A stretch of 53,804 bases of DNA, taken from NCBI GenBank assembly GCA_023512475.1, contig JAILZL010000018.1, positions 1-53,804 of the forward strand. Direction: 5' to 3'. Below the pieces are notes generated by a model. The model saw only the letters and a list, made by a program, of their open reading frames with translations, was not told the origin of the DNA and ran no database searches. The first letter of the stretch is position 1. Each line of letters begins with the position of its first letter. This stretch comes from Syntrophobacterales bacterium. Its GTDB lineage: Bacteria; Desulfobacterota; Desulfobaccia; Desulfobaccales; 0-14-0-80-60-11. Positions 13,689 to 48,850 of the stretch are shown here, one piece after another. Position numbers and translations under genes: made by a program.

Positions 13689-14231
13689 TCAGCCGCCGCC
13701 CCCCTGGAGCTCAGCCAGGGCCTCGGCAAAGGTCTGGTAGGTGGGCTGGCCGAAAAGGACGAAGCGGACCAGTTGGATTTCCGGGTGCTCTTTCACGTAT
13801 TCCCGGACGGTTTTCAGGGCGATTCTGGCGGCCTCGGTGACGGGGTAGCCGTACACCCCGGTGGAGAGGGAGGGAAAGGCAAGGCTGCGGATGCCTTGGG
13901 CGGAGGCGAGCTTGAGGCTCTCCCGGTAGGCGGAGGCCAACAGCTCCGGCTCGCCGTGGCGGCCGTCTTTATAGATGGGGCCCACGGCGTGGATGACCCA
14001 GCGGGCCTTGAGATTGCCCCCGGTGGTGATGACGGCCCGGCCGGTGGGGCAGTAGCCGATTTTCCGGGCCTCCTCCTGGATCTGGGGGCCGCCCGCCCGG
14101 TTGATGGCGCCGTCCACTCCGCCCCCCACCCGCAGCTGCTCATTGGCGGCGTTGACAATGGCTTCGGTGTCCTGCTGGGTGATATCCCCTTCCACCAGCT
14201 CCAGAACGGAGTCACCGATCTTCACCTGCAT
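13689..14231 (-). CDS. macro-domain protein (ADP-ribose/O-acetyl-ADP-ribose hydrolase type)
   Basis: The 180-aa product is a stand-alone macro domain of the YmdB/MacroD type. It has VEGDITQQDTEAIVNAAN near the start, GGGVDGAINRAGG for phosphate binding, and LAFPSLSTGVYGYP for the distal loop. Such enzymes release O-acetyl-ADP-ribose or remove ADP-ribose from acidic side chains in the cytoplasm. The ATG at 14231 fits family length. It lies 145 bases downstream of the thioredoxin-fold selenoprotein on the same strand and converges on priA with a 90-base gap. Confidence 0.9.
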   Translation of the reverse strand: MQVKIGDSVLELVEGDITQQDTEAIVNAANEQLRVGGGVDGAINRAGGPQIQEEARKIGYCPTGRAVITTGGNLKARWVIHAVGPIYKDGRHGEPELLASAYRESLKLASAQGIRSLAFPSLSTGVYGYPVTEAARIALKTVREYVKEHPEIQLVRFVLFGQPTYQTFAEALAELQGGGG

Positions 14232-14376: not shown

Positions 14377-14952
14377 TCAGGCCGGGATCAGCCGGTAGGG
14401 TTCCGCCCGTTTGGCCCAGTCGCTCCCCGGATACCTGGCCGTCAGGGTCTCATAGGCCTGGCGCAGCGGTTTGGGGTTGTGGGTCTCCTTGTATTGGGCC
14501 ACGGCGTTGAAAAAGATGGCCTCGGCCACCGCTTCCGGCACCGCGCCGGCGGCGATGACTTCCTCGAACATGGCCCGGGCCTCCGGGTACTGCTCCAGGT
14601 CCAGATAATAGCGGCCTTTGGCCACCGCCAGGGTGGCGATGAGGGCCTCCGGCGGGAGGAAGCCCACGGAGCGGTAGTGCTCCTTGCCGTCGGCGTCCAG
14701 CACCAGGAGGGTAGGGGTCCAGGAGACGCCGTATTTCTGCATCAGGGCGGTGTGGGAGACCTCAATCTGGACGGGAATGAAATTCAGGTCCACAAAGCGG
14801 GCCACCTCTTCCTTGGGGTACGTCACGGTACCCATCTGCTGGCAGCCGATTCACTGGGGGTTATAAAAGTCCACCAGCACCGGCTTTTTCACCTGCCGGG
14901 CGGTGGCCAGCGCCTTGTCCAGGTCGTGGACCCAACAGATCGTCAATGCCAT
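14377..14952 (-). CDS. thioredoxin-fold selenoprotein (UxxC), read through in-frame UGA
   Basis: Conventional reading would start at an internal ATG (14835) and give 152 aa. Reading from ATG 14952, which has GGAGG eight bases upstream, gives a 191-residue thioredoxin-fold protein interrupted only by TGA at codon 34. The context is PVLVDFYNPQ-[UGA]-IGCQQM, so UGA sits exactly where the first Cys of a CxxC active site belongs and Cys37 is the second. A hairpin starts 17 bases after the UGA. A tRNA-Sec gene lies in this window. The rest (DLNFIPVQIEV, SWTPTLLVLDADGKEHYRSVGF) is a thioredoxin-like core, including the cis-Pro (WTPT) region, with a helical, TPR-like tail. It is a likely thiol-disulfide or peroxide-handling redox protein in the cytoplasm; no signal peptide is seen. 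Confidence 0.85.
14816..14853 (-). promoter_or_regulatory. bacterial SECIS-like hairpin after the UGA
   Basis: On the minus strand, UGA (14853-14851) is followed after 17 bases by GGGTAC-CGTGAC-GTACCC (14833-14816). This is a perfect six-pair stem with a six-base loop whose second base is G. Bacterial SECIS elements lie just downstream of UGA with a G near the 5' side of the apical loop, which fits. The stem is short and the folding has not been computed. Confidence 0.65.
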
Positions 14953-15052
14953 GGCCTTTACCTCCGCAGAAATTTAGCTTAAAGTAATCACTCCCGCTCC
15001 GGGGACAAGGGGGGAGGGGAGGAACCCTATGGCAAAAATTTTGTTTAGGATA

Positions 15053-48752: not shown

Positions 48753-48850
48753 TGGCGGAAGTGCATGGGAATCGAACCCACCCGCCGCCTTCCTCAGACG
48801 GCACACCGGATTTGAAGTCCGGGGGCCCCACCAGTGAGCCTGGCACTTCC
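48753..48850 (-). tRNA. selC: tRNA-Sec (anticodon UCA)
   Basis: The 98-base sequence includes an encoded CCA end. An eight-base acceptor stem pairs GGAAGTGC with GCACTTCC, the anticodon loop CTTCAAA gives UCA (48815-48813), and a long variable arm follows. These are the marks of bacterial tRNA-Sec, which reads UGA as selenocysteine. It agrees with the UxxC selenoprotein at 14377-14952. Confidence 0.95.

Follow-up and report, generated by a model that had tools for sequence, protein, structure and literature searches.

The window analysed in this study, a contig stretch of 53,804 nucleotides, carries on its minus strand a gene in which an in-frame UGA codon is almost certainly decoded as selenocysteine (Sec), giving a predicted redox protein of the thioredoxin fold. 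The decisive point for regarding this UGA as real is its conservation, since the same codon is found in 24 of the 25 corresponding genes of relatives and in about 80 genes overall. The product is most likely a cytoplasmic seleno-thiol:disulfide oxidoreductase whose C-terminal tail binds partners.

An in-frame UGA precedes the conventionally predicted ORF

The gene and its elements were located as follows.

14377..14952, minus strand: complete predicted selenoprotein gene, 191 codons plus a terminal TGA, ATG start at 14952
14960..14965, minus strand: Shine-Dalgarno sequence GGAGGT, read from the sequence, 7 nt 5' of the ATG
14851..14853, minus strand: in-frame UGA, predicted Sec34, position 1 of the UIGC redox motif; TGA kept in about 80 homologues
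14842..14844, minus strand: codon of Cys37, the putative resolving cysteine of UxxC; an invariant alignment column
14377..14835, minus strand: truncated 152-aa ORF of the standard reading (from the ORF list, ATG at 14835), which misses the active site

When the UGA is translated as U, the protein begins MALTICWVHDLDKALATARQVKKPVLVDFYNPQ-U-IGC-QQMGTVTYP... and comprises 191 residues, with the active site U34-I-G-C37 lying in a thioredoxin fold and a second TGA, at 14379-14377, acting as the terminator. An earlier note on this DNA had proposed a UxxC selenoprotein at 14377-14952 with Sec at the first position of a CxxC motif. These coordinates proved to be exact, the strand, which the note left unstated, is minus, and the placing of Sec in the UIGC motif was borne out by both the translation and the alignment of homologues. 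The N-terminal half had also been said to possess its own ribosome site, and the GGAGGT sequence upstream of the ATG agrees with this. Moreover, the 33 codons 5' of the UGA share the frame and the codon-position GC of the downstream part (GC1/2/3 of 0.61/0.33/0.85 before the UGA vs 0.66/0.42/0.87 after it). The prediction that standard gene calling would truncate the protein agrees with the mechanical ORF list, which contains solely the 152-aa piece without the active site. Such genes are split under the standard reading and deprived of their active site, so a conserved redox enzyme of these bacteria is easily overlooked. The window holds just two UGA frames that combine UxxC with long flanks, and the second one is noise-like; thus, the selenoprotein frame stands above chance.

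Domain composition and structure of the predicted protein

The protein consists of two parts.

14629..14940, minus strand: thioredoxin-fold domain, Pfam Thioredoxin_2/Thioredoxin_7, DsbD-gamma-like, residues about 5-108
14389..14622, minus strand: C-terminal TPR-like helices, residues about 111-188

Thioredoxin_2 and Thioredoxin_7 were detected in all 26 members searched against Pfam, and TPR_6 in 15 of them. The AlphaFold2 model (pLDDT 97.0, pTM 0.91) shows a thioredoxin fold followed by a run of helices, and Sec34 is placed at the N-terminus of the active-site helix. The features to be expected of the fold are all present, namely the UxxC motif at the N-terminus of this helix and the conserved Pro loop. 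Across 26 sequences no variation was seen at Asp28, Sec34, Gly36, Cys37 or Trp78-Thr79-Pro80. Asp28, six residues before the nucleophile, presumably occupies the place of the buried Asp26 of thioredoxin, and Pro80 is taken by us to be the cis-proline of the fold. When the thioredoxin domain alone was compared, the best structural matches in the VIA-align list were DsbD-gamma (1vrs_E, Z 15.7, rmsd 1.8 over 106 residues) and DsbH, which tied with it. A distant all-Cys paralogue with the motif CPHC and no TPR tail is encoded in the same genome (L002, G000:C20:101594-101926).

Thioredoxin-like selenoproteins of the UxxC type are already known, and the gene may belong to one published family of them, the 'thiol:disulfide interchange protein'. 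We consider the chances of this to be about even, and such membership would be compatible with our preferred reading. The domain class cd02953 is, as we assume, of the DsbD-gamma type. The published family was filed under cd02953 in the relevant part of the GOS survey (PMC2398784); its entry in the 2026 inventory gives PF13098, UxxC and the representative WP_011366075.1 (PMC13188914), and the pertinent passage of the 2006 report places it in Syntrophus and two Geobacter species (PMC1794560). The protein described here exceeds the PF13098 cut-off (53.6 vs 27 bits) and, as far as these excerpts go, shares with the family the Thioredoxin_2-type domain, Sec as the first residue of UxxC and the same broad bacterial group, the Deltaproteobacteria. 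However, it carries a TPR-like tail, of which those excerpts make no mention, and the two were compared by description. It is also possible, although we hold this more tentatively, that the gene represents a distinct, unnamed selenoprotein family, common across one phylum (Desulfobacterota-type bacteria) and present in Nitrospirota, which combines a Sec-thioredoxin with a TPR-like tail, would act on targeted substrates as a seleno-reductase or seleno-chaperedoxin, and has Sec as the usual state and Cys arising by loss.

By analogy with CnoX (YbbN), the TPR tail could serve for holdase activity or chaperonin docking and the Sec for redox chemistry, which would refine our main explanation and not replace it. 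The combination of thioredoxin with TPR defines CnoX (PMC8129009), TPR_6 was recognized in the majority of members as given above, and the CnoX/YbbN structures 3qdn and 3qou were the top two Foldseek matches by E-value. The overall superposition on them is nevertheless poor (TM 0.43, rmsd 11.6), the tail of about 80 residues contrasts with the two five-helix subdomains of the CnoX TPR domain (PMC8129009), and the thioredoxin domain is nearer to DsbD-gamma. We therefore regard the role of a seleno-chaperedoxin as rather unlikely.

Conservation of the UGA codon among homologues

The gene was found in 25 of the 59 relatives examined (E ≤ 1e-25; 34-91% identity), and TGA occupies the exact codon in 24 of these, with Cys in the remaining one (G042). 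This accords with the expectation in the earlier note that homologues would carry Cys or Sec at this position. In a sample of 395 genomes of the phylum, the gene was detected in 84 (E ≤ 1e-30), 75 of them with the UGA form; the other nine had non-UGA forms only (G042, G305 and seven of family f58). The UGA form was also present in two Nitrospirota MAGs. All 82 stop-bearing alignment rows at the Sec position have TGA, and neither TAA nor TAG was found there among the homologues examined. As TGA is retained in independent assemblies, a sequencing error is excluded, and the codon is no artefact standing for TGG or TGC, which the earlier note had named as a concern. Some genomes (G328, G256, G398, G371) have the UGA-form gene in two or three copies.

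Cys replaces the UGA in a few lineages. In a tree of 97 rows, the distribution of the Sec and the Cys/other labels needs three changes, all of them forced by starred branches. The Cys forms L066 and L030, the latter on a long branch, are nested among Sec forms and can be read as Sec-to-Cys losses, the direction of change being not firmly rooted because a single distant Cys paralogue, itself on a long branch, serves as the outgroup and some of the long branches come together. The family offers a clear example of Sec as the normal state with Cys forms as exceptions. The homologues of family f58 (L067-L075) have CxxC, CxxS or no active-site Cys in a wholly kept protein; here the redox motif is apparently decaying in a protein that persists, and SelB is still found in some f58 genomes.

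A conserved SECIS-type hairpin follows the UGA

14816..14833, minus strand: bacterial SECIS-type hairpin, 6-bp stem, 6-nt loop CGUGAC with an invariant loop G

The bacterial SECIS element has been described as a hairpin directly downstream of the UGA with a G in its small apical loop (PMC1088965), and the features observed here agree with this. The stem begins 17 nt past the UGA, so the distance given in the earlier note was right. Covariation was assessed in 80 distinct 45-nt stretches 3' of the UGA, with the stem at positions 21-26/33-38 (U of the UGA = 1). The stem cells were paired in 94% of cases, compared to 87.9 ± 0.6% (maximum 89.8%) in shuffles that leave the relatedness among the sequences in, and 36 two-sided changes were counted where shuffles averaged 11.9 (maximum 21), a comparison from which relatedness among the sequences is likewise not removed. 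Examples of compensatory change are A-U to G-C at 23/36 and G-C to A-U at 22/37. Sliding one side of the stem by 1-4 nt as a control reduced the pairing to 65% or less, and the stem 21-26/33-38 paired best among all 6-bp stems tested in the 45-nt stretch. The loop base G28 was present in 80 of 80 stretches and was followed by U in 71; the note's claim of a G in the loop can thus be extended to 80 genes. In addition, the stem contains a Thr codon that reads ACG in 60 of 63 cases, and an invariant Thr 35 codons downstream uses all four codons. The energy of the hairpin in the single sequence is ordinary (z -0.69) and uninformative alone, so the support for the hairpin comes from conservation and not from energy. 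An Rfam search of the hairpin gave no match to a SECIS family, the two matches listed being due to chance.

Family f28 (L084, L085, L111, L113, L114, L116, L117, L119), whose proteins have the motif DGUxGCA, shows a different version of the hairpin, in register with the others but with the stem GAAUAC/GUAUUC and the loop GGGUCC.

Taken from these alignments, selection of the UGA as a sense codon together with its hairpin is strongly supported. Alternatively, the gene could be a pseudogene, or the UGA an error of sequencing or assembly, and the 152-aa ORF, which is the only product of the standard reading (from the ATG at 14835), would then be a remnant or a protein with a start of its own. However, TGA, and always TGA, occupies the position in about 80 genes from many families, even where identity falls to 34-40%, the homologous proteins are intact on both sides of it, the hairpin is kept with compensatory change, and the part before the UGA has the same coding signature and a ribosome site. 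This conservation refutes the alternative, to which we assign a very low probability.

Selenocysteine machinery

48753..48850, minus strand: tRNA-Sec gene (selC), anticodon UCA, required for UGA decoding

SelA, SelB and SelD were all found in the genome in addition to tRNA-Sec, as the selenoprotein claim of the earlier note implied. The window also contains the tRNA-Sec gene, at a distance of 34 kb from that of the selenoprotein. The SelD of this genome (L038, G000:C32:44857-45774) itself has an in-frame TGA, in a GUAAK context, and is thus a predicted selenoprotein. SelB scored above the cut-off in 72 of the 75 UGA-form genomes but in only 5 of the 9 Cys-form genomes; the three UGA-form genomes in which it was not detected are draft assemblies, 67-92% complete. 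Since most genomes of the phylum have SelB in any case (353 of 395), the informative part is the contrast with the Cys forms. Within the genus g198, G376 has the UGA form (L119) together with SelB, whereas G305 has the Cys form (L066) and no SelB match, and this congeneric pair ties the Sec machinery to the codon. A changed genetic code, in which the organism would read UGA as Trp, Cys or Gly and under which the frame would also be open, is extremely improbable, as the selenoprotein gene and many of its homologues themselves terminate at UGA, the full Sec pathway with tRNA-Sec is present, and a conserved hairpin after one codon would be needless under genome-wide reassignment.

Gene neighbourhood and literature

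A macro-domain gene (13689-14231, minus strand) follows the selenoprotein gene, and in some relatives (L122, L123) a related gene likewise adjoins it. Across the neighbourhoods of 21 loci, one cluster, of the macro-domain type, was seen in four and another in three, and nothing else was recurrent, so the operon context gives no hint to function or substrate. Nothing was found in a promoter scan, and no relative in the plasmid records searched. The UIGC motif was not mentioned in the selenoprotein literature searched, and a literature search for Desulfobacca and selenocysteine returned only an unrelated co-occurrence.

Proposed mechanism and comparison with known systems

According to the reading that we prefer, Sec insertion in a thioredoxin-fold protein, the ribosome would initiate at the ATG at 14952 and meet the UGA at codon 34, where SelB with Sec-tRNA(Sec), bound to the hairpin, would insert selenocysteine in place of termination. 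Sec34 would then act as the nucleophile and Cys37 would resolve the mixed selenylsulfide. As is typical of thioredoxins, the presumably buried Asp28 and the Trp-Thr-Pro loop do not vary. The enzyme is probably cytoplasmic, no signal peptide being visible by eye, and probably works as a reductase or isomerase, and the probable role of its TPR-like tail is to bind a partner or substrate. Taken together, the detailed function of a seleno-thiol:disulfide oxidoreductase with a partner-binding tail is reasonably probable. The general picture of selenoproteins is unchanged by this gene, which is a genuine yet fairly ordinary addition to a well-known class.

None of the NCBIfam models accepts the protein at its cut-off. 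The TsoB, VPGUxxT and Trx7/PDZ seleno-thioredoxins gave partial domain matches, and membership in these families was rejected since all scores were far below the cut-offs (54 vs 805 bits for TsoB). The classical thioredoxin model (TIGR01068) was rejected as well, at 39 bits vs a cut-off of 96.8. With the selenocysteine thioredoxin (PF00085, UxxC) the protein has in common the fold, the motif and an Asp28 at what we take to be the place of thioredoxin Asp26. It has a domain order similar to that of CnoX/YbbN, with TPR-like helices after a thioredoxin domain, but differs from it by a far shorter tail, a Sec active site, another thioredoxin subtype and the poor overall superposition. The closest structural likeness of its thioredoxin domain is to DsbD-gamma; however, in comparison to DsbD the selenoprotein has no membrane domain and no visible signal peptide, its first active-site Cys is replaced by Sec, and it is extended by the TPR-like tail.
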